The translations under genes were made by a program, and so were the position numbers. Under the pieces are notes generated by a model. It worked only from the letters and a program-made list of their open reading frames with translations, was not told where the DNA came from and ran no database searches. A stretch of 64,000 nucleotides of DNA from Lineus longissimus (taxonomy: Eukaryota > Nemertea > Pilidiophora > Heteronemertea > Lineidae): the NCBI RefSeq assembly GCF_910592395.1, contig NC_088315.1:17283808-17347807 (forward strand), read 5' to 3'. Positions 39,563-62,502 of the stretch are shown in pieces (the stretch's first letter is position 1; each line of letters begins with the position of its first letter).

Positions 39563-39568
39563 CACGGG

Positions 39569-44354: not shown

Positions 44355-44380
44355 GTAACACGAGAATGCCACTCATCAAA

Positions 44381-45176: not shown

Positions 45177-46435
45177 ATGGCAACAGGATATTTATTAAAT
45201 ACCGAAAGGGCACATAAGATTCCACTTGGTTTAAAAGCTGAGAGGCAGCATCATATCATCACTCATAACCCCTCATCTGCTAACCCCAAAGAAACACTGT
45301 ATGTTAGAATACCGGCATTGCGAGAGAATACATTCTTTGTACCTAAATCTCTTTATCTGTCTGCTGATGTAACCATTTCTGGTGATTCTAAAAATAGTGT
45401 TGTAAATAATCTTGGTAGAAACCTAATCTCAAAGATGGTGGTTAAGTGGGGAACAGAGAAGATATTTGACCTTGACGAATACAGTCATTATTCTACATTT
45501 AAAGATCTGTGGTTAACAGAAGAAGAAAGAAATGATAGAGTTTTTCAGGGTATTCAATCAGAAAATCTTAGAGAATTAAGATCAGGAGTCGCTGAAGCTG
45601 ATGTCACTGGAGAAACAGCTAATGAAAAGACATTAAAGAAAGTGTTTGACAAGAAGTACAAAATACCGTTAGATTTTGAATTATTCCACCATCATGCTCC
45701 ATTTTACAAGTTTCCAATTCAAGAAGATGTGATTATTGAAATCACATTAGCACCAAAGGAAGAGATCATAGTTACCGCAACCACAGCAAGTATGGGCTAC
45801 AAACTAGAGAATATTTGTTTTGAATATGACACCGTAACCAACAAGATGATTGCTAGTCAATTGAGTAACAAGTACAATTCTGGATTCTCAATATTTTATG
45901 ATTGGGTAGACCATTTTAAGACAGTCAATGTTACTGCTAATGAAACACTAATTAATGAGAACATCAACTTTCCAAGAATGTCTATTAAAGGATTATTGTT
46001 ACTATTTGTGTCTGACTATGTAGATGGAGCTAGAGATTCAGAGAAGTTTGAAAACCCTAACATAAGTAAAGTGCAGATCACAATAGAGGGTGTTGCCAAT
46101 CAGGTGTTCCCAGAAGGAATGAGAATGATGGATCAATTGGAGGAGATCAAGAAACATTACTGATGTCTGAAGATTTGAAGAAAACTTATGACTGTTACAT
46201 GACAATGGAGAAATACTATGGTGATTCTAATCACTATGGTTTATGGTTGGATTTGAGAACCACAGAAGACAACCGCTTACACGGATCAGGAAAGAAGCTT
46301 CAGAACACAAAAGATGGTATTCAATTATCTGTTTCAAAGAAATCTGGAAAGGGACCATACAAAATGCACATATTCGTGGTTTCTGACGCCCAGGTTAACA
46401 TTCAGAATTCTCAGATTGCTTCACTCCAGCACTGA
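45177..46435 (+). pseudogene. Major-capsid-like protein, frame-broken
   Basis: Two frames, 45,177-46,163 (328 aa) and 46,163-46,435 (90 aa), meet at TGATG, where the stop of one overlaps the start of the other. The first resembles the conserved capsid-type protein found at this position in many metazoan Polintons, with strand-rich sequence, an LGRNLISKMVVKWG block and a DYVDGARDSEKFENP block. The second matches the expected C-terminus of the same protein (LWLDLRT, LHGSGKKL). I therefore infer a one-base frameshift in a roughly 420-aa protein, although coupled re-initiation at TGATG is possible. A double jelly-roll fold is expected but not provable by eye. The stop at 46,433 lies in a hairpin repeat array. 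Confidence 0.62.
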
Positions 46436-46523
46436 GGTGCTGCAAGAACAAAGTTCGCTCCAGCACTGAGGTGTTGCAAGAACAAAAGTTCACTACAACA
46501 TTAGTTGCAGAACAAAGTTCGTA
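46427..46523 (+). repeat. Tandem hairpin array after the capsid gene
   Basis: About 2.5 units of roughly 37 bp. Each has a CAGCAC/GTGCTG (or GTGTTG) stem followed by a GAAC-AAA-GTTC hairpin. The first unit supplies the TGA of the preceding frame. The layout resembles the double-hairpin repeat with a different first stem. Confidence 0.75.
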
Positions 46524-46587
46524 CAACACTAAATTAAATACTAAATACTAGATAATGAGTTTTACTAGTGATTTTCTAAGTAATTAA

Positions 46588-46824
46588 ATGGATACACCAG
46601 GAAAGAAAGATATCATAAATACACTGTATCAAAGTTTACTGTTGGCATCAACAACAATTGGTTACTCTATGCTACTGAAAAGGTTCTTGAGAATCAATAT
46701 TGGTCCCCCAAGTCAGGCCGACCTAGAGGAAATTCTTAAACTGGGCGGAACTGTAGCTATTAGCAATGGAACATTAGAGTACCTTTACGATCAAGGAATC
46801 CTACCCAGAAATATTATGAAGTAA
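46588..46824 (+). CDS. Small membrane protein, Polinton type
   Basis: 78 aa with one hydrophobic helix at about residues 14-32 and a second, weaker one at about 50-62. It has the TTAAATGG start context shared with neighbouring genes. Small membrane proteins of this kind lie beside capsid genes in Polintons; function unknown, perhaps an internal membrane or entry component (inference). Confidence 0.6.
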   Translation: MDTPGKKDIINTLYQSLLLASTTIGYSMLLKRFLRINIGPPSQADLEEILKLGGTVAISNGTLEYLYDQGILPRNIMK

Positions 46825-46881
46825 GAATAATTTACTTATTTGATAAAAGGTAAATTTGAAAACGAAAATTTACTTAACTAA

Positions 46882-47658
46882 ATGGTTACTGTAATGAACA
46901 TAGATTCAAGTGACTACCCAGATTAGAGTTCAAGTGATTTAACAGTCAATCTCAAGACTGAAATTCAGGATACATGTAGCATCACTTTAACTTTTGCAGT
47001 AATACCTTGTACATTCTACAACATAAGTGCAGCCAGGGAGAATAACCGAATCAAAGTTAAGGGGTTTGATGTGGCAGAGATTACGCTACCAGATGGTCTC
47101 TATGACCTACAGAGCTTTTCAAAAGTATTTGCGGATAAGTTGAAAGAAAATAGTATGAGTAGAGGTGCTGTCAGATTTGACCTTGAAGAACCAACAGGTA
47201 AGGCCATCTTACACTTCCTAAAGAGAAAAAATGAGGCGCATTATCAGATCTATTTTCTTGGTAAAAGTAATGAATTATTTGGCATGAAATCAGAATGGCC
47301 TTACCCTTTAGACAATAAAAGTAAGGATGATGTTGTAAGCGAGAAACCCATCAATTTTAGACCAATTAACCATTTTGTTTTTCACTGTGACATAATCGAA
47401 TCTAATAGTGTATTAAGTAATGGTGAAGCATCTGATGTGCTAACCACAAGACCAATAAAGGAAGCTAAGTTTGGAGATTTAATAGCATACACATTTGAGA
47501 AACCAATAGCAATTCCCTGTAAACCAAGATTCAATAAGCTGAATATTCGCTTAACTGATGAAAAAGGTGACATCATCGATCTTAATGGTCATAATGTACA
47601 GTACCAATTGGTATTAACTCGAGCTATGCTCTCAGGACAAAGTCCGACACATCATTAA
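46882..47658 (+). pseudogene. Minor capsid (penton-like) protein 1, in-frame TAG
   Basis: The frame starts at the ATG at 46,882 in the usual CTAAATGG context, meets a TAG at 46,924-46,926 (codon 15), and is then open to 47,658. The open part from 47,071 is 195 aa. The C-terminal block LTDEKGDIIDLNGHNVQ has the pattern seen near the end of single jelly-roll minor capsid proteins and recurs in the protein at 55,806. The last residues (TRAMLSGQSP) are encoded by a double-hairpin repeat. Initiation downstream of the TAG or readthrough is possible, but simple decay is the plain reading. Confidence 0.6.
47618..47647 (+). repeat. Double-hairpin repeat, copy at penton 1 end
   Basis: Canonical 30-bp form: a GAGC-TAT-GCTC stem-loop, spacer TCA, then a GGAC-AAA-GTCC stem-loop. 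Translated as the C-terminus of the penton-like frame. Confidence 0.85.
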
Positions 47659-47691
47659 ATTCACTGGAATTAACATTTTCACTGGAATTAA

Positions 47692-48150
47692 ATGGCTGGC
47701 ATTGGTATGTTATTTGGATCTGCAATAATCAATGGATTAGCATTCACTGGATCCGGTTACCTTTTCAAGTCACTAGACAAAAACGGTTATGAAGATGAAG
47801 TGAAAAGACATGATTTGGCTCAGGAGCAATTACAGAAGGCCTCCACAGAATGGGAGGAGCATAGAAAGAGTACTATTGACTTTGTTAATCTTGAATTAAA
47901 GAGAGAAAGAGACGCTTCTATTGATTTTAACAATACTGATTCAGCACTTACTGTTTACAATCATTTACATCCAGAAAGAACTATTGTACTACCTCAGCGA
48001 CCACAATTAAGTGATTACTACCAACCTAGTGATGAAATGAAGAAATACGAGTACCTATGGATTATCCTAGGACTTAGTGGTTTAGGGTTAATAATTTATT
48101 ATTTTACTAGGGTTAGAAAGACTAAGACCACTGATCGGACACAGTCCTGA
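47692..48150 (+). CDS. 152-aa membrane protein, Polinton type
   Basis: A Gly-rich hydrophobic N-terminus (about 2-25), a charged helical middle with coiled-coil character (about 35-70), and a TM helix near 122-140 followed by a basic tail. The TAAATGG start is present. The stop codon is supplied by a half copy of the hairpin repeat (48,135-48,150). It lies between the penton-like gene and the ATPase, a usual place for virion membrane or minor proteins; the function is not known. Confidence 0.6.
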   Translation: MAGIGMLFGSAIINGLAFTGSGYLFKSLDKNGYEDEVKRHDLAQEQLQKASTEWEEHRKSTIDFVNLELKRERDASIDFNNTDSALTVYNHLHPERTIVLPQRPQLSDYYQPSDEMKKYEYLWIILGLSGLGLIIYYFTRVRKTKTTDRTQS

Positions 48151-48165
48151 TGATCAGAAGCGGGA

Positions 48166-48786
48166 CTAAGATTTTTGATGGGAAAGAGTAAATCCAAATG
48201 GATGTTGTAGTCTAATGATCAGTTTTGATCCTTTTTTCATCTTAAGTTCTTCTATGTAGTACTGTCTTTTCTCCTTAGGAATAACACTGTTTTCTTCTAA
48301 GGCATCTTTCATGGCTGATTCATCCTTGTTAAAGAACAGGACTAAAATTCTTATGTTCTCTCTGTAGTCCTTGACAACTGAATTGTACTTCTGAACTAGT
48401 TACCAAACAGTGAGATTGTAGTGCCTGCCGGAAAAGGCAAGATTACATAACTCGGACACCTTCTTTTTTGTGTCTCTCAAATTAGCATAGTCATCAATTA
48501 GGAATAATGTGTTAGAACCAGCAAAGGTCAGAGTAGCAAACTGAAGCACAAGGTCCAAATTACTGGCCACAGCTTCGGGATTAACTATGTAGACGTTCTT
48601 GTCTTGGTAAATCCATTTCCTTTCATATGTCTTATTGTTGAAATATGTTGGACAGAAAATGACTATGTTCTGGAACTTGTGCCGATACTCCTTTTCTAAG
48701 AGGTCAAGGGCAAAATATGTCTTACCACAATTGGTAACACCAGAAATTAACATATTGTGTGGCTCGTAAATAAATACTTCACTCAT
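48166..48786 (-). pseudogene. DNA-packaging ATPase (A32/FtsK-like), one TAA
   Basis: A genome-packaging ATPase of about 206 codons. The Walker A motif is GVTNCGKTYF near the N-terminus and the Walker B motif FLIDDYAN lies near residue 97. The frame is open for 128 codons, hits a TAA on the minus strand (48,400-48,402), then continues in the same frame for 77 codons to 48,166 with the expected C-terminal region. It starts head-to-head with the integrase gene, only 4 bp apart. Non-functional unless the stop is read through. Confidence 0.82.
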
Positions 48787-48790
48787 TTAA

Positions 48791-49912
48791 ATGGATGTAA
48801 AGGATGACACACAGCAGTATCTAAGGGATTTGTACTACAACCCCGAGAGTCCCGTGGCTTACAGTTCTTTGAGTAAAATCTGGAAACAGGTCAAGGAAGA
48901 TATGACTTCGTCACGAGAGCAGAGCTCAGGAAAACTTATTAAACAAAAAGAAGTGAAAGAATTTCTAGAAACACTACCAACTCACCAACTACACAAACCG
49001 GCCATTAAGAAATTCACCTTCAGGAAGACAATGGTATCGTACATCGATCAACAGTGGCAAGCTGATCTGGTTGACATGCAGAAATTCGAGAGTAAGAATA
49101 AGGGTTTCAGATTCATTTTAACAGTCATAGATCTATTTAGTCGTTTTTCTTGGGCTCTAGCAGTTAAGAGTAAGAGGGGAGAAGAAATCAGAGATGCCTT
49201 CAAATTGATTTTCAGAGAAGCAAAACCAGAAAAGATCCAGTTTGATGACGGTACAGAATTTTACAACAAACACTTCAAGGAACTCTTAACAGAAAATGAC
49301 ATAGAATGGTTCTCCACAAAATCTGATAAGAAGGCAGCAGTAGTAGAGAGATTCAATAGAACCCTTAAAGAAAAAATGTGGCGTTATTTCACCGCTAAGG
49401 AGACTGACAAGTGGATTGACGTTCTGGATGACCTGGTCAGCGGCTACAATAACACATTTCACTCATCAATAGGTATGAAACCTGTAGACGCCAGAAAGAT
49501 GGAAAACGAAGGAACAGTGTGGTACAATCTTTACGGTCTTCACCTCAAAGAGACATTTGGTAATCCAAAGTACAAAGTAGGTGACAGTGTAAGAATTTCA
49601 AAGTACAAGTCCATTTTCGGTAAAGGTTACATGCCCAACTACACTGAGGAGGTGTTCCAAATCAAACAGATCATCTTTACTCACCCTATCGTCTACAAGC
49701 TTGAGGATTACCACAAAGAAGAAATTCAGGGATATTTCTATGAAGAGGAATTGAGCTATGTTCCTAATCCTGACCAGCTAGAGTACAAGATCGAGAAAAT
49801 CCTCAGGTACAAGACCAGTAAAGGCAAGAAATACGGATTAGTGAAGTGGAAGGGTTACAGTGATAAGTTCAATGAATGGTTACCAGTTTCTGATATCAAA
49901 TCATTGAAATGA
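48791..49912 (+). CDS. INT: Retroviral-type integrase with chromodomain
   Basis: 373 aa, intact. DDE core: first Asp in WQADLVDM (about residue 97), second in QFDDGTEF (about 153), Glu in AVVERFNRT (about 190). It is followed by an SH3-like stretch and a C-terminal chromodomain (about 330-373: IEKILRY, VKWKGYSDKFNEW), which in related integrases guides insertion to chromatin. The N-terminal part contains MTSSREQSS, encoded by a decayed hairpin repeat (48,902-48,930). It would catalyse insertion of the element with 6-bp staggered cuts. It is the one core gene here that is fully open. Confidence 0.92.
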   Translation: MDVKDDTQQYLRDLYYNPESPVAYSSLSKIWKQVKEDMTSSREQSSGKLIKQKEVKEFLETLPTHQLHKPAIKKFTFRKTMVSYIDQQWQADLVDMQKFESKNKGFRFILTVIDLFSRFSWALAVKSKRGEEIRDAFKLIFREAKPEKIQFDDGTEFYNKHFKELLTENDIEWFSTKSDKKAAVVERFNRTLKEKMWRYFTAKETDKWIDVLDDLVSGYNNTFHSSIGMKPVDARKMENEGTVWYNLYGLHLKETFGNPKYKVGDSVRISKYKSIFGKGYMPNYTEEVFQIKQIIFTHPIVYKLEDYHKEEIQGYFYEEELSYVPNPDQLEYKIEKILRYKTSKGKKYGLVKWKGYSDKFNEWLPVSDIKSLK

Positions 49913-49999
49913 AATAAAGTCTCTAAAGTGACTTAAGTCACAAGAACAAGTTCGAAAAACGTAATTTAAAAAAAAATGTCCTACTAAATAAAGAAAGAA

Positions 50000-51094
50000 A
50001 TGGAGGGAGCAATATTTGATAATCAAAATGGTATGATGAATCAGAATAATATGATGAATCATGATAATATGATGAATCAAAATATTCAGAAGTTTTTGTA
50101 TTATTTGCATCAAAATATTATGTTAAATCAAAATATGATAAATCAGATTATGTTAAATCAAAATATGATAAATCAGTTTATCTTAAATCAGATTATGTTA
50201 AATCAAAACATGGAAAATCAGAATAATATGATGAATCAAAACATGGAAAATCAACCTACAATTTATTGTGTTAAGTGCTGTGAAAAGAAACCTGAAATTA
50301 ATTTTGAAAAGAACAGGCGTAATAAACTACTTGATTACTGTAAAGAATGTGGTTCAAGTAAAATCAAGGGATGTAATAAATGTTATGAAATTAAATTACT
50401 AAGTGATGGTGAATTTGGTAAAGACGGAAATAGAGGTAACTGCAGATCATGTTTTAATTCATATTACAAAAAGGATTACCTTGACCAAAATGGTAATAGA
50501 GACAGACACAAAATTAGAGTTGGTCTAAACCGCATTTCTAAGGGAGAGTGTAACGGTAATTCCTCATTTAATCTAGGATGTACAGACAGTTTCTTCCATC
50601 AGTGGTTAGAGTACCAGAGGAGTCTATCTCCAATAGGACAAAGTCCCGAGAACAGAGTTCGAATAGAAGAAGAAGAGTTGGATCATGTCTTACCAATCAA
50701 GGAGTTCAAAGATAAACCTGAACTGTGCTTTGCTTGGTTTAACATAAGACCAATGGAAAAGACAGAAAACAGACAGAAGAGTGCTACAGTAGACTACACA
50801 CTATTTAAGGATCAATTGGATAGGTCAATGGATTTCATGGTAAAGATGAGAAGTGAAAACTGGTTTGTCTTTCGAGACCAGAATGTAATACCAGATTGGA
50901 AAATAGTGATATCACAGCATTTCGGGGATTATCTTCGTGATAAAAATATGATTCTGCTTGATAGATTATCGAATTTAAATAATAACATGAGAATGAACCA
51001 GAACATTAACATATGTAGTCAGACAGAAATCATAAACGAGATGATTAAGTTGAATAATAGACTTGAAAGAAATTTACTCTTTGCAGTGAATTGA
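50000..51094 (+). CDS. Zinc-ribbon and HNH-type nuclease-like protein
   Basis: 364 aa. Residues 1-85 are a low-complexity Met/Asn/Gln tract built from a short DNA repeat. Next come Cys pairs typical of zinc binding (CVKCCEKK, CKECGS, CNKCYE, CRSC; about residues 88-155). A region near 225-265 with LDHVLPIKEF and a later WFNIRPM resembles HNH-type endonuclease cores of viral and phage nucleases (inference from motif). A hairpin repeat encodes SPIGQSPENRV just upstream. The start at 50,000 is AT-rich. The role could be DNA processing or homing-type cleavage; biochemical activity is unproven. Confidence 0.6.
   Translation: MEGAIFDNQNGMMNQNNMMNHDNMMNQNIQKFLYYLHQNIMLNQNMINQIMLNQNMINQFILNQIMLNQNMENQNNMMNQNMENQPTIYCVKCCEKKPEINFEKNRRNKLLDYCKECGSSKIKGCNKCYEIKLLSDGEFGKDGNRGNCRSCFNSYYKKDYLDQNGNRDRHKIRVGLNRISKGECNGNSSFNLGCTDSFFHQWLEYQRSLSPIGQSPENRVRIEEEELDHVLPIKEFKDKPELCFAWFNIRPMEKTENRQKSATVDYTLFKDQLDRSMDFMVKMRSENWFVFRDQNVIPDWKIVISQHFGDYLRDKNMILLDRLSNLNNNMRMNQNINICSQTEIINEMIKLNNRLERNLLFAVN
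50635..50664 (+). repeat. Double-hairpin repeat in nuclease-like gene
   Basis: GGAC-AAA-GTCC, spacer CGA, GAAC-AGA-GTTC. The second stem differs from the canonical GAGC/GCTC by a paired change. In frame within the ORF. Confidence 0.8.
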
Positions 51095-51113
51095 TTTTAT
51101 TTTACTTAATTAA

Positions 51114-51365: not shown

Positions 51366-51369
51366 TTAA

Positions 51370-52029: not shown

Positions 52030-52040
52030 ATCATACAGGA

Positions 52041-52100
52041 CTCGAGCTCTGCTCTCAGGACAAAGTCCGACTAGGACAAGGTCCCGAGAACAAAGTTCGA
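52041..52100 (+). repeat. Two adjacent double-hairpin repeats, intergenic
   Basis: A canonical copy at 52,041-52,070 and a variant at 52,073-52,100 with GGAC-AAG-GTCC and GAAC-AAA-GTTC stems. They lie between the ends of two convergent genes (52,029 and 52,233). Confidence 0.85.
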
Positions 52101-53453
52101 CTAAATAGTCCTAATCCTAATGTGGTTTATCACTATCACTATTATCATGACTTTGGTGTTAGGGATGAATTTCACCAAGTAGCACTACCATCAGCACCAC
52201 CCTATTCATTAGTTTAAGAATGATTTCGCAACTCAAGCGAAGTTTGAATCGCTGTAATCCATGTAGCCTTCATAATACATTCCAAATGGTAAGGTGCTTA
52301 TTCCATCTTCAAGTATGAACCTCTTGTCATCAAAAGGACTGAGGCTTTTTTTGTCAACTTCTTCCAAATAGATTTGGTGTTTATCTGATCTTAAGTGTCT
52401 CATCTTGTGGTAAAATGACCTACTCTTTTCAAGACAATCAACATAGTCATCAAATGAGATATTTCTCCTTACTACATTCTTGGCAATACCCTTCAATTTC
52501 TTAGAATCGTAATCTTTTGTCCTGTAAGCGTACATCTTACTTCTCAGGGCAATGAATTCAGTCATCTCTACTCCTCCTAGCTCATCCTTAAAGTAGCCTG
52601 GTACCTTCTTTTTACTGGTATCATAGAATGTATGATCTTTTGGATAATTACTGAAATCAAAATAGTGTCTCAACTCCTTTAAGTCTTTAGTTAAGTCATC
52701 AGTATTAATGTTAACTACGAAAGAATCTGTATCTAGATACAGTAATTCAATATTTTTCTCACCAAAATATGGTTGAAGAACTTCATAATAGAACTCATAC
52801 ATTAATAATTTAGACAATTCAAGTACGGCAGCTCCTATGTAGATTGGTTTGTTGAATTTCATTGATGTTTTCCTCATGCTAATAGCAGCATTATGTTCGT
52901 CAAATACGCATATCGATGAAAACCTGGGATTGGCCATTACATTCCTGGCTCTCTCCCCGTCCGATACCAATTCAATTTCAACCCTGTTCCTTACATTCTC
53001 ACAAGTCTTTCCGTAGAACGCATTATTCATGAGCTTAAAATAGTCTTTCTCAAAATCAGTCTTAGAATCCATACGTCTTTTAGTGTTAAAATCAATGTAT
53101 GGTGCTAACCACTTTGATTGTTTAAAGCTTATCACTGAATGAACCCTCTTAAGTACCATTCCGTGCTTTAGGTAAAACTGTAGCATTCTGTAATGCACTA
53201 TGTAATTAGTTTTATCCTTTTGTGTTAGTATTAGTTTCTCTACATTTGATCTTTTATCATCACCCAGTAACTCCCTCTGGTAAGGACTTAATTCATCATC
53301 TTCAATAAAGAGAGATTCAGGACAGAATGGAAAGTTCCTTGACTTAAATTTAATATTTCCTGGATACTCCAAATCAACCTCTAAGAAGTAGCCTACTTCA
53401 CTATCACTTGGAATTGCCATAATCTGCTCTTTACTAATAGCATTCATGTTAAG

Positions 53454-53483
53454 TCGGACTTTGTCCTGAGAGCATAGCTCGAG
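53454..53483 (-). repeat. Double-hairpin repeat inside polymerase core
   Basis: Canonical form, translated as LELCSQDKVR without disturbing the frame of the DNA polymerase. Confidence 0.85.
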
Positions 53484-55187
53484 TGGATCAATATCTATCA
53501 TTTCAAAACTACCATAGGGTTGAGGTTCCATCATGGCCCATCCGTAAAGATTATTAGCATCGATGTACAGCAATTTATGACTCTCATCGGCCTTGATATG
53601 TCTTGTGCCCATAACACCCGATATTCCACCTCTTATTGCCTTTTCAAAAGTAAGTAATATGTTGGTATCAGTCAGTAGTTCTAGGTTTATTCCTGTGTAT
53701 TTCAAACCAGCTTGCCAGGTTAGGCCTGGTGCCGAGTAACAGTGACATGGATCTATCTGAAAGTAGTTCAAATTGACATCCCTGAATTTCTCAAATAAAT
53801 CAGCTAGAAGGATCACATCAGTTTTGAGGTAGAGGTCAATGAACTCACCGTGATTCCTGATCTTGAAATGATCCCATATTACCTTAGCTTCATCATAGGC
53901 AGAATCAGGTGCCATTTCATTTTTCAATTCGTCAAAAAACATAGACTTTTCTAGGTAAGTAACATTGTAGCTTTCATGTGATGTGTAAAAAGAGTAAGGT
54001 ACTGAACCCTTCTTCCTCAATAGCTTAAAGTCAGTGGTATTTGGGAACAGCTGTCTGGTAATTTTAAAATCATCATCCAACATTGATTTGGTTATGTTGT
54101 CTAAACTGGACTGCAGGAATCTGTACGAGTCCAAAAACCTGAAACAACCGAACTGAAATGAAATGTATTCCTCTGATGTTTTGGCAAGTATTTTCAGTTT
54201 CTTGTACTTCGGTAGCTTAGTCATTAATTCTTTAATAAATAAGTGAGAATCGTAATTACTGAGAAAAAACACTGGAACAAACATAGCTTTCTTTTCATTC
54301 AAATTACACGAGTTGTGAGCAGCACCTCGATATCTACCACAGTAGTGATCATGATCCTTGACCTTGTCATATCCCAAAGGTTGATTACAATAGTAACAAT
54401 GTGTTTCTAATTGATATTTATGCCAGTCTTCATCTGTCATTGTTAGAGGAAAGTTACAGTTCAATACATTAGAGAATTGTTCTTCCATCCTGATTAACCA
54501 ATCACAGAAATCATCTACAACATCAGCACCCCTGTGAGACACATACTGGCTACTGTAAAGGTGTGTGTAGTCTGAGTGAACATAAACACCAACAGCTGAT
54601 GCATTTTGTTTAAAAAGTTTCTTAAAATTCTGTTCTTTCACCATAGGTGGCTCTACTGACACTACTGGTATGTTGCCTTCGGCAGAAGAACAAGGTTCGC
54701 TTATTGATTCAAAATCAGCATAGATCACAAACGGAACTCTATTTTTGAATGAGTGTTTTTCAATTTAATTTGTGACCATTTACTGTTAGGTGGAGGCAAA
54801 GTAATCTTACAGTAATCGTGTTCTCCACATTTCTTTTTATGATTATCTAGTTTTGACTTCCTGTAAAAGTAATTCATGCATCTCCTGCAAAGATACACTC
54901 TATGAGCTAGTGTCCTGAAGAAAAGATTGATGTCTCTTATGTACATGAAATGGTCCTAGAAATACAGCAGATCGATGACATCATAATCATCATAATTCTT
55001 GGACAGGTAGAGAGGTTCTAGTTTTGCCTCACAGGTGCTCTTAGCCGATTCATTCTGCAATTTAAACACATTAATTTTGAGATTATTATCACTCTCTATC
55101 TTAGGAATATCCTTTTGAATACATACAGGAAATGAGTCTATTCGTACTCCGTACTGAGAGCTAGGCTCGATTACGACATCAGTAGTT

Positions 55188-55216
55188 TTCGAACTCTGTT
55201 CTCGTGACGAAGTCAT
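55188..55216 (+). repeat. Double-hairpin repeat variant in polymerase N-region
   Basis: Stems GAAC-TCT-GTTC and TGAC-GAA-GTCA; both are compensated relative to the canonical form. On the minus strand it encodes MTSSREQSS, the same peptide seen in the integrase. A half copy (GAGC-TAG-GCTC) lies just before it at 55,157-55,171. Confidence 0.75.
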
Positions 55217-55805
55217 TTCTAGCATATCGGTAGTAATATTTAATGTACTCTCTGGATTTTCTTTCAGATATTTAGCGGCCAATAAAGACCAGAGAAAACA
55301 TTTATTGTCATTTGATTCCACATTTATTACTGCTTTTGTTTTAAATGGTAATTTAGTGTAATGACCACCTTTACAACTCTTGTAGGAACAGATGGTCATG
55401 TTACAAGACTCTATTTTATTTAAAGTAAGTCCAGAACCTTGAAAGTACCTTTCCTCAATCTGTGTCTTAATGTAGTTTAACTGGTTGGTTATGGCATAAA
55501 TTGCCTGGTTCCTTTTACTATTTCTATTCCACTCACTTTCTTTATGCCATCTAGCTCATTTTCCTCAAATGCAAGTTTCTTATCCATAGTTTTAGGGATC
55601 AGTGATTGGGCTCGGGGTTGAGCAATAGGGACATAATCCGGATTTAATTTACTTAAGTGACCTTTGGTTCTCCTGTGAATGGCCATATTATTGTAGGATA
55701 TGTACTTGTCACATGTAGTGCAAAGTATTTTCTGATTCTTATCAGTCATTCTATTTATTAGATTAAAATTTATTAAATTCAATAAATCTCTTGAATTAAA
55801 TAGAA

Positions 55806-56837
55806 ATGGACTTCATAATCAATGAACAAGAATGTAATGAAGCCAAATTTGAGTACTACTTAACAGACCAATTAGACATAAAATCCATTACTTTGAAATC
55901 GATAACCTTTTACAATTCATGGTGGACAGGTGATTTTCTACCAGAGGGAGTAAGGATTTTCTCATTTCTAGTCGAAATAACCAGAATTACAACAAATGAG
56001 CCCTTAGATAAACAATTATGGTGTATGGATGAATTTAGGACATTATTTGCTCCTGGACTTGAAACAGATACACTTGAAAAGGAAGTCATGAAAATTTGCG
56101 AACGGCATTTGGAAAATGAATCTACCACAACTAAAGACACCATTACTCAATACACATTTCCATACTCTCGACATTTTAGTTTAAGTGAGTTTTGTGAGGT
56201 ATGGCAAAAATACATAAAAGAAATTGGAATTAGCCACGTTAAGGTCAACTGTGATAACAATAATTACATAACCCTTGAACTTACAGAGGATAAAGAGTAC
56301 CCTCTGAAAGTAGACAAGTTAGATAAAAATGAAAAAATCAAGATTGAGCGAAACACAGAAGGTTTTCAAATAAGCAAAACCACAAGAGAGGTGATAAAAA
56401 AACAGCTCACAGTGGTGAATGAGTGGTTTGGCTTTAAGCAAACTAAATTCACCAAGAAAGGAAAATACTACTCCACAAGACCACTCAACTTTTACAGGAA
56501 ATATCTATTCCTGCAAGCTAATTTGGTTGACAAAGCTAAGACCCTCTACAACAATAAACCATCTAACATTTTCTGCATCATACCTGTAGAAGATGGTGAC
56601 CAAATAAAAATGCAGCGATACGAACCGAATTGTAAGAAAACGATAAATAAGTGTACTAATCACATAAAATTCGAAATCACTGATGAGAATGGTAAGCTAG
56701 TTAATTTCAGAGGAACAGAGGTTTCTTTAGAGTTAAGAATAGAGTTAAACTCTCAGGACAAAGTCCGAATAGAGTTAAACTCTTGTGGTGAAGACAAGCA
56801 CCTCGGACTCGAGCTCTGCTCTCAGGACGAAGTCTGA
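55806..56837 (+). CDS. Penton-like / minor capsid protein 2
   Basis: 343 aa, intact. Strand-rich, ending with FEITDENGKLVNFRGTEVS, the same pattern as the end of the protein at 46,882, so I infer a second single jelly-roll capsid protein. After this block the C-terminal roughly 35 residues are entirely encoded by hairpin repeats, and the stop TGA itself is part of one. It is divergent from the polymerase gene (57 bp between the starts). It could be a vertex variant or a spike base; the assignment rests on the C-terminal motif and context. Confidence 0.5.
   Translation: MDFIINEQECNEAKFEYYLTDQLDIKSITLKSITFYNSWWTGDFLPEGVRIFSFLVEITRITTNEPLDKQLWCMDEFRTLFAPGLETDTLEKEVMKICERHLENESTTTKDTITQYTFPYSRHFSLSEFCEVWQKYIKEIGISHVKVNCDNNNYITLELTEDKEYPLKVDKLDKNEKIKIERNTEGFQISKTTREVIKKQLTVVNEWFGFKQTKFTKKGKYYSTRPLNFYRKYLFLQANLVDKAKTLYNNKPSNIFCIIPVEDGDQIKMQRYEPNCKKTINKCTNHIKFEITDENGKLVNFRGTEVSLELRIELNSQDKVRIELNSCGEDKHLGLELCSQDEV
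56741..56837 (+). repeat. Double-hairpin cluster at end of penton 2
   Basis: A full copy with a GAGT-TAA-ACTC first stem (56,741-56,770), a half copy (56,771-56,782) and a canonical copy (56,808-56,837) whose last three bases are the stop codon. Confidence 0.82.
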
Positions 56838-56936
56838 CCACCTGATGAGATCATTCCATTAAAGGAATAGTACATTTCTTCTCTTTAACTACAGGTTTAA
56901 CAAGAGGGTTAATTGATCCCTTCATGACTGCTTCAT

Positions 56937-56966
56937 TCGGACTTTGTCCTGAGAGCATAGCTCGAT
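56937..56966 (-). repeat. Double-hairpin repeat, intergenic
   Basis: A canonical copy in minus orientation, 14 bp beyond the stop of the leftward gene ending at 56,980. Confidence 0.85.
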
Positions 56967-56979
56967 TCAAGCCTGATCG

Positions 56980-57327
56980 CTACTCTTTACTTACTTTTTT
57001 AGGAAGTTTCTTAAACATAATGAATGCTGCTAAAATAATTGCACCTAAACCTAGTACATAGACATAAGTATTACTGGTAGATTCACGCAGTGATACATCA
57101 GTATTTTGAGATTGTGGTTCTTCTTCCTCTACTTCTTCTTCCTCCTTTTCCACAACTCTGTTGTTTGGTGGGGAGTCCTGTACTTTAAATGTTGTCTTAT
57201 CCTTTTTTATCCTCTTAAATTCCTTAGATCTTCTACCCAGTTCTCTGGACCATGCTAATTGTTTCTCTGATCGAGGTTTCTTAGACACTGAAACTTTAGT
57301 AGTATCAGGTACAGTTTCAAGTTCCAT
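56980..57327 (-). CDS. 115-aa basic protein with C-terminal TM
   Basis: A Lys/Arg-rich N-terminal half (RELGRRSKEFKRIKK), a Glu-rich stretch (about 63-72) and a TM helix near 90-107 followed by a short basic tail. Similar small proteins occur in other Polintons; function unknown. Confidence 0.55.
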   Translation of the reverse strand: MELETVPDTTKVSVSKKPRSEKQLAWSRELGRRSKEFKRIKKDKTTFKVQDSPPNNRVVEKEEEEVEEEEPQSQNTDVSLRESTSNTYVYVLGLGAIILAAFIMFKKLPKKVSKE

Positions 57328-57375
57328 TTATCTTGCTCAAATTAATTGGAACTCAGTTCTCATAACCAGGTTAAT

Positions 57376-58278
57376 TTAGTCTTCTTTATCATCACTACCT
57401 GTGATATCTAGACTTTCATCTATTGGTTTGTCACATTCAGAGACAGTCATATTCGGTGTATTCATATTTGATGCAGTCATACTCGATGTATTCATAGATG
57501 ATTCCTCATGACAATGACCTAAAGTAATAAGTGTTGTTGAAGCAAGTGCAGTTAATGGACCCATTCTCAAACTCAACCATCCAAGCCATTTAGCCAACTC
57601 GTTAGTTATCAAATAATCATTTCTAAGATCATGGTAAAGATCATCTTCATCATCTATTGGTAATAACCACCTTGATAATTTAGTGTAAGCTTTAAGTACT
57701 GTCTTACCCAAAGAATCATTAAGTCTAGCAGCCATCTTTGTTTCATACATTCTATGGTGTTTTAAGATTTCTTTTTCAGTCATATTATCTAAGTCATTAA
57801 AATTTATTTGTTTGTTAAGGAAATCCTTGCTTTTACCAGTTGCAACTAGAATCTCTAAGTCTTGTTTGGCTTTAAGGCCACTATCAGTCAAATAGTTCAA
57901 ATTTTGTTGATTGCTAGTTGAGCCTAGTTGCCAACTAGAATTGACTATTCCCTGACTGGGATTAACTATTCCCTGACTGGGATTAACTAAATTTGAACTA
58001 TTCAACTGCTTGTTTGAAACTTGTTGATTTGTAGAGCAGTTCTGTTGAAAGTTAGTTCTGTTTTGTTGGTAACTACCAGTGTTCTGTTGGTTAGAAGCCC
58101 CAACTCGAGCTAAGCTCTCAGGACTGTGTCCGACTCGAGCTAAGCTCTCAGGACTGTGTCCGACTCGAGCTAAGCTCTCAGGACTGTGTCCGACTGGGTT
58201 TGGAATGATAACACCAATCTGTTTCATCTGTTGTTCAATCACTGCAGATGTCTGACTGTTCATTTGCTGATTATTCAT
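57376..58278 (-). CDS. 300-aa Polinton protein with hairpin-encoded repeats
   Basis: A Gln/Asn-rich N-terminus followed by three perfect 10-residue repeats (VGHSPESLAR) encoded by three tandem 30-bp double-hairpin units at 58,103-58,192. Next come further Gln/Asn-rich sequence and a conserved-looking helical domain (about 150-250) with PIDDEDDLYHDLRNDY and a hydrophobic segment near 232-250. The tail has Met/Asn/Ser repeats. The family is common in Polintons; function unknown. Confidence 0.6.
   Translation of the reverse strand: MNNQQMNSQTSAVIEQQMKQIGVIIPNPVGHSPESLARVGHSPESLARVGHSPESLARVGASNQQNTGSYQQNRTNFQQNCSTNQQVSNKQLNSSNLVNPSQGIVNPSQGIVNSSWQLGSTSNQQNLNYLTDSGLKAKQDLEILVATGKSKDFLNKQINFNDLDNMTEKEILKHHRMYETKMAARLNDSLGKTVLKAYTKLSRWLLPIDDEDDLYHDLRNDYLITNELAKWLGWLSLRMGPLTALASTTLITLGHCHEESSMNTSSMTASNMNTPNMTVSECDKPIDESLDITGSDDKED
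58103..58192 (+). repeat. Three tandem 30-bp double-hairpin units
   Basis: Three identical units with loops changed to TAA and TGT but stems GAGC/GCTC and GGAC/GTCC kept. They encode a triplicated decapeptide on the minus strand. Confidence 0.9.
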
Positions 58279-58329
58279 TTAAAATTATGGAAAAATGTCT
58301 GTTAAGTGCAAAATGCTGTTTTCACAACT

Positions 58330-59472
58330 TTATTGCATCTTAACACTAGCTCGAGCTATGCTCTCAGGACGAAGTCCGGCTGGTGTAAACTTAATACTAC
58401 TGATGCAGTTATTGTCTCTACCTGCACTGGCACTCAGTAAAACGTCAAACTGCTTGTCAATATCCTGGTCATATACCTTCTCAAATTTGTAATTTTGGAA
58501 GAAAATACTTTGAGTGAAATCATACCATAATCTCTCCAAATCATTTACTCGCTCCTTGTTGGTTAAAAAAGGTGTAAATATTACATAATCAATTTTCAGC
58601 GTTTTAAAGGCTTGGTGTAAAAATACCTTGTAGTTAATGGTGACCTTGACACCACAGTAATGCAGAAATCTTAGGAAGGCAAAGTAAACTAGTCTAAGGT
58701 CAGTGATATTCTCATCTGTTAATTGGGGTTTACCAATTGCCCTGTTAATAAATTCTATTGCAAGAAACCAGTCATATTCCCCACAGTGAAATTTAAAAAG
58801 CATGGCTTCACCATGTAACCCTTGGTTACATAATTTAGAGGGGAGAGTGTTAATACCCATTTTTAGGGCTGACTGAAGAGTACTTTCATATCTCTGCTTA
58901 CTGAGGCATTTTCTGGAACTTGAAAAGCAACCCTGCAAATACCATTCCACAAAGTCCTTTAAATACTTAACTGCCGATTCGGACAGCCGCCTCCATCCAA
59001 GTTTCCTTAGAATACTGTCAAAGTAACGTGTCTTGTTGTCAATATTGATCTCAAGAGTTTTAAAATCATCGTCGTAAGTAGTCGAATTGCAATTGGTGCA
59101 GAATTGATACCTGACAGTTTTAGCTGCGTACCTTGCTGAATTCAAGTTTTTTCGGTACTCACATAGTGTCCACCTTTTACAATTTCTACATAATTCCGCT
59201 TTGGCGATGGTACTGGTGTCATACTCTTTCATTTTTGGCATACCTTTGGTATTAACAGCAGAGCTGTGCACAAGAAAGTTGTTTTCATCTTTGCCTGTCT
59301 CAGTCAGACTTCGTCTTGAGAGCATAGCTCGAGTAGGCTTATCATCTTCTCCACTGTCATCTTTTTTATTGAATGTAGAATTTCCATCCATAACCCTAGG
59401 ACGAAGGAATCCAGTAAGATTTTCATTGCTACATTTACTAAAATAGTCTTTTAATGAAATCATCCTATTCAC
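58330..59472 (-). CDS. 380-aa zinc-ribbon-like hypothetical
   Basis: Cys pairs CRNCKRWTLC and CTNC (about residues 95-130) suggest one zinc-binding site; the rest is helical without a recognised domain. Two hairpin repeats are translated within it: TRAMLSRRSLT near residue 48 (59,304-59,333) and PESIARAS at the C-terminus (58,350-58,379). A 17-bp stretch at 59,190-59,206 matches the terminus of the foldback family. No catalytic motif seen. Confidence 0.55.
   Translation of the reverse strand: MNRMISLKDYFSKCSNENLTGFLRPRVMDGNSTFNKKDDSGEDDKPTRAMLSRRSLTETGKDENNFLVHSSAVNTKGMPKMKEYDTSTIAKAELCRNCKRWTLCEYRKNLNSARYAAKTVRYQFCTNCNSTTYDDDFKTLEINIDNKTRYFDSILRKLGWRRLSESAVKYLKDFVEWYLQGCFSSSRKCLSKQRYESTLQSALKMGINTLPSKLCNQGLHGEAMLFKFHCGEYDWFLAIEFINRAIGKPQLTDENITDLRLVYFAFLRFLHYCGVKVTINYKVFLHQAFKTLKIDYVIFTPFLTNKERVNDLERLWYDFTQSIFFQNYKFEKVYDQDIDKQFDVLLSASAGRDNNCISSIKFTPAGLRPESIARASVKMQ
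58350..58379 (+). repeat. Double-hairpin repeat at C-terminus of 380-aa ORF
   Basis: Canonical stems with a GAA second loop, translated on the minus strand as PESIAR near the protein end. Confidence 0.85.
59304..59333 (-). repeat. Double-hairpin repeat within 380-aa ORF
   Basis: The second stem is changed to AGAC/GTCT by a paired substitution; the first stem is canonical. In frame. Confidence 0.82.
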
Positions 59473-59523
59473 TTCTATTTACATAATAATTATTTTTTAA
59501 ACATTGTTTTGATAGAAGGTCAC

Positions 59524-60303
59524 CTAAGACCTTTTACGTGATTTTAAGGCTTTACGTGATTTTAAGGCTTTAACACCCTCTATTAAACCATAAATTATGG
59601 AACTAACAATAGCAATAACTGCTATGATCAGATGTTCGGCTAAAAATCCAACAGCAGCACCTACTGATTTCAATAAAAATGAAACTAAAGACCCTATTAT
59701 TCCAGGTAAAGCTGCAGCTGATTTCTTGGCTAGTTCTTTCAACCATTCAGCCAACTTCTTAAGACCTTCTTTTACTTTATCTGGTATTGATGGTTTTGGT
59801 CCAGGTTCTGGTGTAGGTCCTGGAGTTGGGTCTGGTCCTGGTGTAGGTCCTGGTCCTGGAGTTGGTTTTACAGATTTAGTGGCACCACTTAAAGCACTAC
59901 TGATACTAAGACCTAGAGTTGTAAATGTCATTACAACAGCTGTTATTATGGCGCTAATAGTTACACCATACGTCTTAAAAAGTAACTTTATTCTGTCCTT
60001 TAGAGGAATAGTTGAATCTGGTTTCTTTAGAACATCAACAATTAAACGTTTAATTCTTCTAGTTTGTGACTCCCTGTCATTGTCTAACCTCCATACCTTT
60101 GACTGTTCCTCATGCAATTTGTCATTTAGTTCATCTATTTGCTTTTTCAACTCTCCCTCTCTTATTATTAGATTTTCCTTTTCGTCTGAATGATCTTCTC
60201 CAGAGTTAATTAAGTCATTACTTAGAACTTCATTTTCTTCTCCTAGGATAGCATATTCTCTTTTTTTACTGTTAAGTTCTTCTTCTAGGCTTTCTATTTG
60301 CAT
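59524..60303 (-). CDS. 259-aa coiled-coil, Pro/Gly-linker membrane protein
   Basis: An N-terminal coiled coil (about 1-80), a TM helix (about 113-138), a PTPGPGP-type linker (about 146-170), an amphipathic Lys/Leu helix, then one or two strongly hydrophobic helices (about 195-245) and a basic tail with a duplicated ALKSRK. The second half is of a type frequent in Polintons and might be membrane-active (inference). Confidence 0.6.
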   Translation of the reverse strand: MQIESLEEELNSKKREYAILGEENEVLSNDLINSGEDHSDEKENLIIREGELKKQIDELNDKLHEEQSKVWRLDNDRESQTRRIKRLIVDVLKKPDSTIPLKDRIKLLFKTYGVTISAIITAVVMTFTTLGLSISSALSGATKSVKPTPGPGPTPGPDPTPGPTPEPGPKPSIPDKVKEGLKKLAEWLKELAKKSAAALPGIIGSLVSFLLKSVGAAVGFLAEHLIIAVIAIVSSIIYGLIEGVKALKSRKALKSRKRS

Positions 60304-60347
60304 GTCCTTATCCCTCTTTACTGTAGCTAGATCATCACCAGCCTGTT

Positions 60348-61100
60348 TTACCCTCTAAGTTCTCTCAAGGCATATTCAGTAAAACCCAGTGTTTTAAGTT
60401 CATCATCATTGGAATCAATTAATTTATCTATTGGTTTGTTTGAACTGTTTACCTCATTAATTACTGCCTGTGTTTCAGGGGTTACTAATGTAGGTTGACT
60501 TACTGGTGTTGGGCCTTCCATAGGTGCCATTCTAGGTACTTCCATAGGTGCTGGTTCATCAGGTTCAATCATATCTTTAATAATGTTAGCAAATCTCAGA
60601 CCATACTTAGTCTTTAATGTCAGTTCAGAATAGAATTTACCATTTGATTTAATTAAAGGAATGATAGCGGCAGTCCCTCCATCAAAAGTATTAGGAATTT
60701 TAATCAAATTGTTCATTTGTTGTTCTGTAATGTTTGCTAATTCTCCTTTTGTAGGCCAGAAGTAAGGTTCCTTGTTGTGCAAATAAATACGTGGTGCTAG
60801 TTTACTTAGTTTGTTAGGGTCATATTTCCATTTACCACTTTTTTTCAATGCTGTATCAAGTTTATCCTCTTTATCCTCTAGCAATGACTTCTTCTCCTCT
60901 AGTTGCTGGTCAAAAACTCTTGGCCTTTCTGGAGTTGTAGTGAATGAAGTTTCAGTAGTAAGATTTCCGACTCCTGTGTTGTATCTTGTGCCGTCATCTT
61001 GAAAAGTTCTATTGGTTTCACCTGTATTAGGATCATTCACATTACGAATGCGATAATTATCTATCTCACCCATTTGGATATCTTCACCTCCTTCAGCCAT
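60348..61100 (-). CDS. 250-aa hypothetical, Polinton type
   Basis: A charged, disordered N-terminus, a helical middle (about 65-90), a compact region (about 90-180) with LAPRIYLHNKEPYFW, then a Pro/Met-rich stretch (PAPMEVPRMAPMEGP) and a C-terminal helix. No motif is recognised. It lies in a same-strand run of five genes reading leftward. Confidence 0.5.
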   Translation of the reverse strand: MAEGGEDIQMGEIDNYRIRNVNDPNTGETNRTFQDDGTRYNTGVGNLTTETSFTTTPERPRVFDQQLEEKKSLLEDKEDKLDTALKKSGKWKYDPNKLSKLAPRIYLHNKEPYFWPTKGELANITEQQMNNLIKIPNTFDGGTAAIIPLIKSNGKFYSELTLKTKYGLRFANIIKDMIEPDEPAPMEVPRMAPMEGPTPVSQPTLVTPETQAVINEVNSSNKPIDKLIDSNDDELKTLGFTEYALRELRG

Positions 61101-61110
61101 AATTACTTAT

Positions 61111-62502
61111 TTATCTAACCATAAAAACAATTAATGTACCAACAACTGAGTAAAGCATGAATTTAATTGTTTCATGAGTATCATCCACCTTCTCAACTTT
61201 GGTGTCAAGTTTAGTAGTAGTAGGAGTATTCTTTGAGGTTTCAGTTGTTTTTGGTGTATCAACATTACTCTTTGGTTTATGACTGGTCTCGAGCTCTGCT
61301 CTCAGGACAAAGTCCGTCTTGACAGTACCAACGCTACTCTTAACTCTTATTTTCTTAGAACTATTTCCTTCCATCAGTGGTGGTGGTAAAGTCTTTTTGT
61401 GGTTAATGTCATTCTTACCAGGTTTAGCATTTTTTGGTGCTATTAAAATGTTATTATTGTAGTTAACCAGCTTACCAATAACGAGTACCATATTTGATCC
61501 TATGACATACAATCCTGGTGATATTACATAATCTAGTCTTGTATGAGTGTCACTCACTGCTTTTTGGTATCTTTGAATTGAAGTGGGAATATCAGGATGT
61601 TGATTAATCGAGTCCTTTAATAGTTTGTTGAATTCCTTCTGAGCATCCAATTCTGTACCCGGTACTCCAATTATTGGTGTTCTGGTCAACGCCTGAGCAC
61701 CCAGAATACAGTAAACATATGTTCTTATTGTGTCATTCAACCTCTCTATTCCAGGATTAGAGAAACCATTTGATTTAAATATCATGAATTGTTGATAGGT
61801 TTGACATTCATTTTGTGTAATTACATCAAATACATTCTTGTGTCTCCTGACATGATCCTTGATGAAAGTATCAGGATATTTGAAATTAGCCATTCCAGCA
61901 TCCCAGTCTTTACTGAACATCGGTGGCATTCTATTTTCATGAACTTGCATGAGGAAGAAATTGATTTTAGAATCATTGATGTAATATCCGGGATCAGTTA
62001 TGTTCGGGTTGTAATCCGGTACACTCCATGACCTCCAACCACCGTTATTTTCAAACACCGAGAAATCGTACTCGTCTTTTAAACCAAATTCACTCAATAA
62101 CCCTCCTAGTTTCCTACGGTTAATGTTATTGTTTGTCTCATTAAAATCACTTTTACCTGGAATTGGTATCTCTAGATTCTTCATGATCTTCAATATTTGA
62201 TAGTAAACATGAAACCTGTAAATTGACCTTATCAATGGGTCACTGTGATTCAAGTGATCGTCTATTGAAATACCACAACCTGTTGTAGCAAACCAAACAG
62301 CCATGTTAAATTGGTTTTGGTAAAACGATAATGGATTCTTTTCCAGTCGCAGACAGTCTTTCTTATTTTTCAGGCTCAAAAACCCAGGTGTTATCTTAGT
62401 TTCTTGTAGTCTGAAGAAATTGTTACTGTTAACAGTTACTTCTAAATTAAAGAAGTCATAGGTGAATTTACTTTTATGTTGATTTGCTATTGGATAATAC
62501 AT
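61111..62502 (-). CDS. 463-aa Polinton protein with C-terminal TM
   Basis: A large ordered region (about 1-360) containing WFATTGCGIS, FRFHVYYQ-like and LNDTIRTYVYCILGAQA blocks, a Lys/Thr-rich linker that includes a hairpin-encoded DFVLRAELE (61,288-61,317), and a TM helix at the extreme C-terminus (about 445-463). This family recurs next to Polinton termini in other animals but has no assigned role; a virion surface or membrane protein is plausible. The start has an ATTAAATG context 73 bp from the right TIR. Confidence 0.6.
   Translation of the reverse strand: MYYPIANQHKSKFTYDFFNLEVTVNSNNFFRLQETKITPGFLSLKNKKDCLRLEKNPLSFYQNQFNMAVWFATTGCGISIDDHLNHSDPLIRSIYRFHVYYQILKIMKNLEIPIPGKSDFNETNNNINRRKLGGLLSEFGLKDEYDFSVFENNGGWRSWSVPDYNPNITDPGYYINDSKINFFLMQVHENRMPPMFSKDWDAGMANFKYPDTFIKDHVRRHKNVFDVITQNECQTYQQFMIFKSNGFSNPGIERLNDTIRTYVYCILGAQALTRTPIIGVPGTELDAQKEFNKLLKDSINQHPDIPTSIQRYQKAVSDTHTRLDYVISPGLYVIGSNMVLVIGKLVNYNNNILIAPKNAKPGKNDINHKKTLPPPLMEGNSSKKIRVKSSVGTVKTDFVLRAELETSHKPKSNVDTPKTTETSKNTPTTTKLDTKVEKVDDTHETIKFMLYSVVGTLIVFMVR
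61288..61317 (+). repeat. Double-hairpin repeat within 463-aa ORF
   Basis: A canonical copy read in yet another frame on the minus strand (DFVLRAELE), in the flexible linker before the TM helix. The TCT loop avoids the stop that the more common TAT loop would give in this frame. Confidence 0.85.

Follow-up and report, generated by a model that had tools for sequence, protein, structure and literature searches.

Thirty-nucleotide double-hairpin insertions in Polintons of Lineus longissimus: a probable family of very short non-autonomous mobile elements

To our knowledge, micro-elements that are defined by structure only are known mainly from organelles and bacteria. Rickettsia palindromic elements are palindromic units of about 100–150 nt inserted in frame within bacterial genes, and the bacterial REP/BIME palindromes are very short, non-autonomous, hairpin-based and largely extragenic sequences that are moved in trans by RAYT. 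Here we describe a 30-nt unit composed of two adjacent stem-loops, repeated within a Polinton in a 64,000-nt stretch of DNA from the nemertean Lineus longissimus (the window, i.e. the whole stretch that was analysed, to which coordinates refer). We consider it fairly probable that the unit represents a family of very short non-autonomous mobile elements, living in the Polinton lineage and copied in the course of Polinton replication, perhaps with the help of Endonuclease VII-type nucleases.

Similar structures have been described in fungal mitochondrial DNA, where double-hairpin elements (DHEs) are held to be potentially mobile (PMC10085805, PMC2800124); according to these reports, fission-yeast DHEs are mostly intergenic (PMC10085805), while Allomyces DHEs are reported without flanking duplications (PMC2800124). 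The GC clusters of yeast mitochondria are described as short, G+C-rich and mobile, some of them lying in the coding gene var1 (PMC2800124). Further reports place inverted repeats within protein-coding genes of Nematomorpha mitochondria (PMC6649704), and non-autonomous Submariner miniature inverted-repeat transposable elements (MITEs) in a DNA virus, Pandoravirus, some of them in genes (PMC5799277, PMC4495683). For Polinton/Maverick elements, the papers listed on palindromic, hairpin or in-frame repeats, as judged by titles and the beginning of abstracts, include none on such elements in Polintons.

Double-hairpin copies and their pairing

A sequence-only reading of the window had proposed a mobile-looking double-hairpin family confined to the Polinton. 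A strict scan for two hairpins, each with a 4-bp stem and a 3-nt loop and separated by a 3-nt spacer, detected 18 distinct sites within the Polinton at 44381–62786, compared to a mean of 1.2 rows over both strands (maximum 4), i.e. about 0.6 sites, in 50 dinucleotide shuffles of the same DNA; outside the Polinton it detected one site, 526–550, which is about chance level. A covariance model, R1, was built from 67 rows, 12 of which are these window copies, so that it is partly trained on the copies that it finds; it gave 18 window matches at E ≤ 1.6e-5, all within the Polinton. Its best match elsewhere, a look-alike at 524–552 (E 0.3), was treated as chance. The two lists differ by one element each (56809, with one broken pair, and 54674, with other stems), giving 19 elements in total, of which 15 lie inside open reading frames (ORFs) and 4 are intergenic. 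None of the 15 has an internal stop, except for the 56809 element, which contains the stop codon of its own ORF. An Rfam scan of 44000–64000 gave no match. The elements and their relatives in the window are listed below, where "copies" are Polinton copies elsewhere in the genome.

47619..47647, + strand: element near the 3' end of ORF47071; 46.2 bits; 3/5 copies empty, with an exact 30-nt difference
48901..48929, − strand: element in the integrase ORF, with TGAC/GTCA stem and TCG spacer; 29 bits; 4/8 copies lack it by a 27-nt difference
50634..50662, − strand: element in the Endonuclease VII-like ORF; 2/9 copies empty, exact 30 nt; filled in the divergent copy L050
52042..52070, + strand: intergenic element; strict scan and covariance model
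52072..52100, − strand: intergenic element adjoining 52042..52070; 4/7 copies lack it, exact 30 nt, one with a base change
53454..53482, − strand: element in the PolB ORF, encoding LELCSQDKVR; 9/19 copies empty, exact 30 nt, ACT repeat
54672..54700, + strand: divergent double hairpin in the PolB ORF, TGCC/GGCA and GAAC/GTTC stems, spacer GAA; strict scan only, no R1 match
55142..55170, − strand: element with a GTAC/GTAC second stem; 11/14 copies empty, exact 30 nt
55189..55217, + strand: element with GAAC/GTTC and TGAC/GTCA stems and TCG spacer; scan and model; no clean empty site found
56740..56768, + strand: hybrid double hairpin, hairpin 1 as in the empty target and hairpin 2 as in the element; 25.3 bits; 2/8 copies empty
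56809..56837, + strand: element at the ORF55806 end, with one pair broken or G-T; exact 30-nt empty sites in 3 copies
56937..56965, − strand: intergenic element; scan and model; one to two units in other copies, L021 and L025 read as empty
57347..57375, + strand: weak double hairpin, intergenic, possibly old; 25.7 bits; filled in every copy compared
58105..58193, + strand: three identical head-to-tail elements of 30-nt period in ORF57376; one unit in L025, a truncated unit in 14 other copies
58351..58379, + strand: element in ORF58330; other copies have between one and three units in tandem
59304..59332, − strand: element in ORF58330, AGAC/GTCT stem; strict scan and model
61289..61317, + strand: element in ORF61111, with loop TCT where TAT would give a stop; model; filled in 10/10 copies
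48135..48153, − strand: half unit, one hairpin; 15.5 bits, E 0.012; 48-nt expansion in the C19 sister copy
46427..46523, + strand: tandem look-alikes with a longer first stem and a unit of about 34 nt; fewer units in L024

All 16 positions that the sequence-only reading had given as full copies (58,103 standing for three) are real, and the proposed confinement within the window was borne out; the weak element at 57347–57375 had been missed. Of the supposed halves, only 48,135 is a true one. The one at 55,157 belongs to the full element 55142–55170 (GAGC/GCTC, GTAC/GTAC) as its second hairpin. Likewise, the one at 54,688 is hairpin 2 of a 4-3-4 pair (54674–54698) with other stems and spacer GAA, and the hairpin at 56,771 also occurs in empty copies. 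By our reading, the GAGT/ACTC variant at 56,741 appears to be a hybrid, with this pre-existing 56,771 hairpin taking the place of hairpin 1. The sequences at 46427–46523, which had been set apart as look-alikes, share the same double-hairpin plan and come after a small ORF whose stop codon falls in the first loop.

The unit of 30 nt comprises a 28-nt core and a 2-nt target repeat. The core reads TC, hairpin (4-bp stem, 3-nt loop), TCN, hairpin (4-bp stem, 3-nt loop), G or T, with a first stem that is mostly GAGC or GAAC and a second that is mostly GGAC. Among 280 instances, oriented by the TC of the spacer and found by a scan that required the loop-closing C-G pairs, the leading T was present in 274 and the following C in 270; in the 67-row alignment, for which the closing G's were no criterion of choice, C-G forms the first closing pair in 67/67 rows and the second in 65/67. 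By our reading, a nested variant at 48903 in copies L009 and L013 has 5-bp stems and a 2-nt spacer, and still measures 28 nt.

Pairing is kept while the letters vary. Over the 67 rows, 96.3% of the stem cells are paired against 90.0% in shuffled alignments, and two-sided stem changes amount to 31 cells against a shuffled mean of 6.1, a value that none of 500 shuffles attained. When pairs showing a two-sided change are counted, 5/500 shuffles reach the observed number, and for pair types 1/500 does; all five covariation measures lie above their shuffled means, three of them being reached by 0/500 shuffles. Slid registers were far worse, with at most 40.9% of cells paired. Similarly, inserts that were placed by their left arms show 313 of 328 cells paired (shuffled mean 287, maximum 299). 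The covariation beyond shuffles supports the selection or copying mechanism acting on structure that had been proposed from the sequence.

Filled and empty sites, targets and spread

The window flanks were used to find each site in Polinton copies elsewhere in the genome, and exact empty sites were found at 47621 (3/5 copies), 50636 (2/9), 52074 (4/7), 53456 (9/19), 55144 (11/14) and 56742 (2/8). A structure-blind scan then covered every exact flank-to-flank insertion of 3–120 nt in 21 records (the window Polinton and L009–L028, with L001–L008 left out). Site keys numbered 95 at 30 nt, 35 at 60 nt and 13 at 90 nt; other lengths (27 at 15 nt, 26 at 18 nt and 19 at 45 nt) are probably short ORF repeats. 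The 95 keys at 30 nt are composed of 67 placed as elements by their left arms, 18 protein-repeat changes and 10 shifted, divergent or variant units. The mobility suspected from the sequence is accordingly seen as exact 30-bp presence/absence in 50 filled/empty clusters, of which 19 are clean, i.e. with 8-nt flanks free of element-like words, while two of the 19 still lie directly against the end of an element and two are insertions of opposite orientation at one and the same target. Insertions filled in one sampled copy alone account for 20 of the 50 clusters and 3 of the 19 clean sites.

A sister copy (L029, C19), 97.6% identical to the window Polinton over 9,496 columns, carries four extra elements (49095, 52098, 52215 and 55248) and is without one (55136). 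Substitutions between L029 and window 46401–56700 are clustered (e.g. at about 51472–51960, 53537–53643 and 54651–54696), as expected of recombination mosaics. At 47621, the variants found on the same flanks in the window Polinton (W) and in L010 differ at three places, which suggests separate insertions. Moreover, a head-to-tail array of seven units at 30-nt steps was found at C1:13018053-13018259.

Insertions favour the trinucleotide ACT, in both orientations, within and between genes. Over 23 contexts, filtered from 46 recovered and including some that abut elements or repeat a site, the target letters are A in 21, C in 15 and T in 18. The trinucleotide of the target recurs unchanged on both sides of the insert at ten of the 19 clean sites (ACT at four, AAT at three, and TCT, ATT and AGT at one each); eight sites are unequal and one is mixed (ACT/ACC). 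Among the unequal sites, five have a right copy unlike the target (TGT/GGT twice, AAT/ACT, GGT/AGT and GAT/ACT), and three have ACT on the left with target ACC or ACA. As the left copy ends in T at 19/19 clean sites, this leading T is best counted as part of the element, which leaves a perfect 2-nt repeat at 13/19. Unequal repeats whose odd member is like the usual donor flank fit copying guided by 1–3 matching bases, and the left/right inequality fits such microhomology-guided copying better than a clean staggered cut. That the targets are hairpins themselves is not claimed; the signal was weak over 31 and 41 nt (p 0.003 and 0.024) and non-significant over 21 nt (p 0.11), with some contexts abutting elements.

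Within genes, insertions are frame-neutral because the insert is 30 nt long. Precise presence/absence had been anticipated at codon boundaries; the precision holds, yet placement is not restricted to the boundaries, and in-ORF elements occupy all six frame/orientation classes, with unrelated peptides. Stops were found in 0/3 distinct in-ORF elements in frame '+0' (compared to 36/106 variants of the element), 3/14 in '+1' (6/106), 0/21 in '+2' (10/106), 1/19 in '-0' (13/106), 1/18 in '-1', where the stop lies past the insert (60/106), and 0/14 in '-2' (56/106). Elements that bring a stop into the local frame are thus seldom seen, and it would seem that selection on the Polinton gene removes them. 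Of the window elements, the two antisense ones in the TGA-prone frame each have the spacer TCG instead of TCA, and the element in the TAG-prone frame has the loop TCT instead of TAT.

The sequence-only reading would have been refuted by the same residues being conserved at all these sites in orthologous Polinton proteins. In PolB, the gene compared, all 17 relatives (44–68% identity, nearly all metagenomic) span the 53454 site and 0/17 have the ten-residue insert; the insert columns are empty in 12/17 and hold one to four residues in 5/17. At the protein level, no insert of at least 5 residues in these 17 relatives resembled the element by eye. A Lineus protein, P0009, about 80% identical to the integrase, has an insert in the same loop with residues GHSPESIA, which would fit a reading of the element.

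A pattern search of the genome with TCGARCNNNGYTCTCNGGACNNNGTCC gave 2,385 matches, 1,192 forward and 1,193 reverse, with 0 for the reversed-pattern controls; an earlier pattern allowing up to three mismatches gave 1,914, with a control of 0. The 100 of 2,385 matches listed follow contig 1 in order as far as 13.11 Mb. They begin no earlier than 8.63 Mb and form ten clusters, each of up to about 14 kb. One DNA piece per cluster was inspected, and all ten (L030, L053, L051, L050, L009, L010, L055, L031, L054 and L052) are Polintons, in agreement with the confinement to Polintons that had been proposed. L050 holds a lone match, and its Polinton is divergent: two ORFs are 63% and 65% identical at the protein level, and 37% of the piece is alignable as DNA. 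Exact hits, drawn from the exact-hit listing and not at random over all matches, were in a Polinton in 40/40 cases (20 isolated as 10-kb pieces and 20 as short pieces), four being within the ten clusters. Thus no host copy unrelated to Polintons, the finding that would have spoken against the sequence-only reading, was found among the ten clusters and 40 sampled hits. A PolB piece gave 374 first-look candidates in the genome, the best 40 of the 374 being 97–100% identical. The pattern scan of IMG/VR viral contigs gave 0 matches. In an integrase alignment against viral contigs, 40 pattern stretches came up and none was confirmed.

The carrier Polinton and its genes

The Polinton carrying the elements spans 44381–62786 and has perfect 212-bp terminal inverted repeats (TIRs) at both ends. 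It lies on contig 8, whose 20.96 Mb, within a 391-Mb genome, is the size of a nuclear chromosome; the carrier is not mitochondrial DNA. Its recognised parts are as follows.

44381..44592, + strand: left TIR, 212 nt, 100% complementary to 62575-62786
62575..62786, − strand: right TIR, pairing with the left TIR
48400..48786, − strand: part of a packaging-ATPase-like protein, PF04665 Pox_A32, E 2.7e-9
48791..49912, + strand: rve integrase with chromodomain, PF00665 and PF00385
50000..51094, + strand: Endonuclease VII/HNH-like ORF (ORF50000), phrog_1035 endonuclease VII, E 1.4e-6, residues 122-271; a putative candidate for generating or processing the insertions
52233..54728, − strand: PolB ORF, named via relatives (with PF03175), with a weak Endonuclease_7 match, PF02945, E 1.2e-4

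The Endonuclease_7 match in the PolB ORF scores 22.4 bits, below the cut-off of 23.6, and a Capsid_N match in the Polinton is likewise sub-threshold in Pfam (18 bits against 24). Assignment to the Polintons is made by the TIRs, the rve integrase, PolB through its relatives, the Pox_A32 ATPase and the sub-threshold capsid match, and these sequence features taken together identify the carrier as a Polinton. ORF50000 has a Q/N-rich repeat in its N-terminal part and gave no Pfam match above cut-off; residues 90–364, compared to a large protein collection, gave 319 candidates with none at E ≤ 1e-3, and comparison to PDB sequences gave 0 matches. A single-sequence structure prediction of it was discarded (mean pLDDT 33.9). 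Its versions are more divergent in copies L010, L021, L025 and L027 (about 65–68%) and in L050 (63%).

The closest animal-named homologue of the integrase is from Lineus longissimus; closer still is P0001, 96% identical and filed under Bartonella sp. CL29QHWL, probably from a contaminating contig. Other inverted sequences lie outside the Polinton. Just beyond the left TIR, at 44180–44351, an inverted repeat has 84-nt arms that are 93% complementary and 4 nt apart; another, at 39565–40557, has 236-nt arms, 96% complementary and built of short tandem units; and an identical 28-nt double-hairpin-like sequence with ATAT and GGAG/CTCC stems occurs at 19849–19876 and 36333–36360, about 16.5 kb apart.

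Proposed copying path, alternatives and known systems

As every copy examined lies in a Polinton, it is probably on Polinton DNA that donor and target come together with the machinery. Single strands are exposed when DNA is replicated by protein-primed strand displacement, and we infer a path in which the element would be copied during the Polinton's own replication of this kind. A growing or repair strand would switch at an ACT-like trinucleotide onto a hairpin-forming donor copy, read 30 nt and return on the same trinucleotide. Nucleases of the endonuclease VII class cut branched DNA, and such enzymes (ORF50000, or the weak domain in PolB) may nick or resolve the double hairpins. Such template switching would account for a unit of fixed length with imperfect flanking repeats, for the tandem 30-nt arrays and the hybrid hairpin, and for the lack of copies in the host DNA examined.

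Several points weigh against this reading. Perfect 3-nt repeats, at 10/19 clean sites, are equally expected from an ordinary transposase, and just 3 of the 19 are filled in a single sampled copy. Site 50636 is filled in a Polinton that is diverged by ~18% at that place, and also in L021 and L025, yet it is empty in their close relatives L010 and L027, and therefore losses or conversions occur; Polinton copies are mosaic, so that gene conversion may lie behind part of the presence/absence. At 48903 the difference is of 27 nt, with changes nearby, instead of an exact 30 nt, 57349 and 61291 are filled in all copies compared, and 58107 is a truncated unit in fourteen. Regarding the structure, the 67 rows were hand-picked from 101 (left-arm match and at least 5/8 pairs; 4 more sequences had fewer), and kinship among rows inflates the covariation scores; the five stretches folded as single DNA strands are thermodynamically weak, at −2.9 to −4.5 kcal/mol (z-scores −1.6 to +0.5), the double hairpin not being the best fold of the 56809 stretch. 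Of the elements in ORFs, 5/89 do contain a stop, the 89 are not independent but include related copies of the same site, and 115 of 286 instances were dropped for want of a frame on both sides. As for the enzyme, a family match is all that points to ORF50000 and PolB as candidates.

Perhaps a dedicated single-strand transposase (HUH/Y1, RAYT-like), encoded by the Polinton or the host, recognises the hairpins and inserts the unit 3′ of a short target, a possibility that we hold unlikely. Two hairpins with a short preferred target do resemble the logic of REP and IS200/IS605, opposite-orientation elements near 56811 abut the same trinucleotide, and if the unit is written as T-27-NN, by our reading the dinucleotides on the left and in the target agree at 18 of the 19 clean sites (leaving out the mixed one), which fits a one-sided rule. 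However, the right dinucleotide usually equals the target as well, which such enzymes are not known to produce, and no such domain was found by Pfam (E ≤ 0.01) in 16 Polinton ORFs, host genes not being searched. It is distinctly unlikely, in our opinion, that the elements are old and immobile, their distribution being shaped by gene conversion among hundreds of Polinton copies and by precise hairpin-promoted deletion. The mosaic copies with clustered substitutions and the distribution at 50636 would agree with this, whereas the insertions seen in a single sampled copy, the different variants at 47621 and the absence of the PolB insert from 17/17 relatives argue against it. Quite improbable is an ordinary element of the cut-and-paste or MITE-like type, whose target-site duplication of 2 or 3 bp would come from a DDE-type enzyme. 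The Polinton does encode an rve integrase that could perhaps serve, and perfect 3-nt repeats, or 2-nt repeats with the leading T counted as element, are found at 10 and 13 of the 19 clean sites, yet the right repeat is unlike the target at five although the flanks are otherwise kept, the element is without the usual terminal inverted repeats, Polinton integrases are known for 5–6 bp duplications and no host insertion was seen among the matches checked. Finally, maintenance for a protein benefit of the encoded peptides, and not for DNA mobility, is scarcely credible. The 15 window elements in ORFs, with no internal stop but that of 56809, would agree with it, whereas the four intergenic ones, the unrelated peptides in all six frame/orientation classes and the pairing conserved across frames argue against it.

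With copying on Polinton DNA as the preferred reading, we tentatively suggest a parasite of a parasite, i.e. a 28-nt element that would use Polinton replication and branched-DNA nucleases and is perhaps the smallest unit for which insertional spread in a nuclear genome is known, its ten-codon step making insertion tolerable in a gene-dense, virus-like genome. If this is true, the places to which it is confined are those where Polinton replication proceeds separately from the host chromosomes. The element may also be of use as a natural marker for DNA that has undergone Polinton replication, and it illustrates a way for virus-like genes to acquire inserts of ten residues while staying in frame. 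With thousands of copies in one chromosome-level genome, filled and empty sites on near-identical flanks, a unit of fixed size, a preferred target and a class of candidate enzymes, the mechanism is directly testable.

The likeness to Rickettsia palindromic and mitochondrial double-hairpin elements, which had been drawn from the sequence, holds for behaviour and is no evidence of descent. In-frame insertion within ORFs is shared with the Rickettsia elements, whereas the present unit is of 30 nt and in a metazoan genome. REP palindromes have RAYT, while Pfam detected no RAYT-like domain in the 16 Polinton ORFs, the rest of the genome not being searched. The yeast GC clusters belong to another genome and differ in sequence and target, and Submariner-type MITEs are longer, with terminal inverted repeats and a transposase relative. 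Nematomorpha coding palindromes differ as long perfect inverted repeats of up to 284 bp in mitochondrial DNA. With the DHEs of Allomyces, chytrids and fission yeasts, the Polinton element shares two short adjacent stem-loops in scattered copies, conserved pairing and presence/absence between close relatives. Those are organellar, while ours resides in a nuclear Polinton with a fixed 30-nt step, a target repeat and most window copies in ORFs, and unlike the Allomyces DHEs it shows identical 3-nt repeats at ten of the 19 clean sites. The Polinton element is thus a further variant of the double-hairpin/palindromic-element kind.

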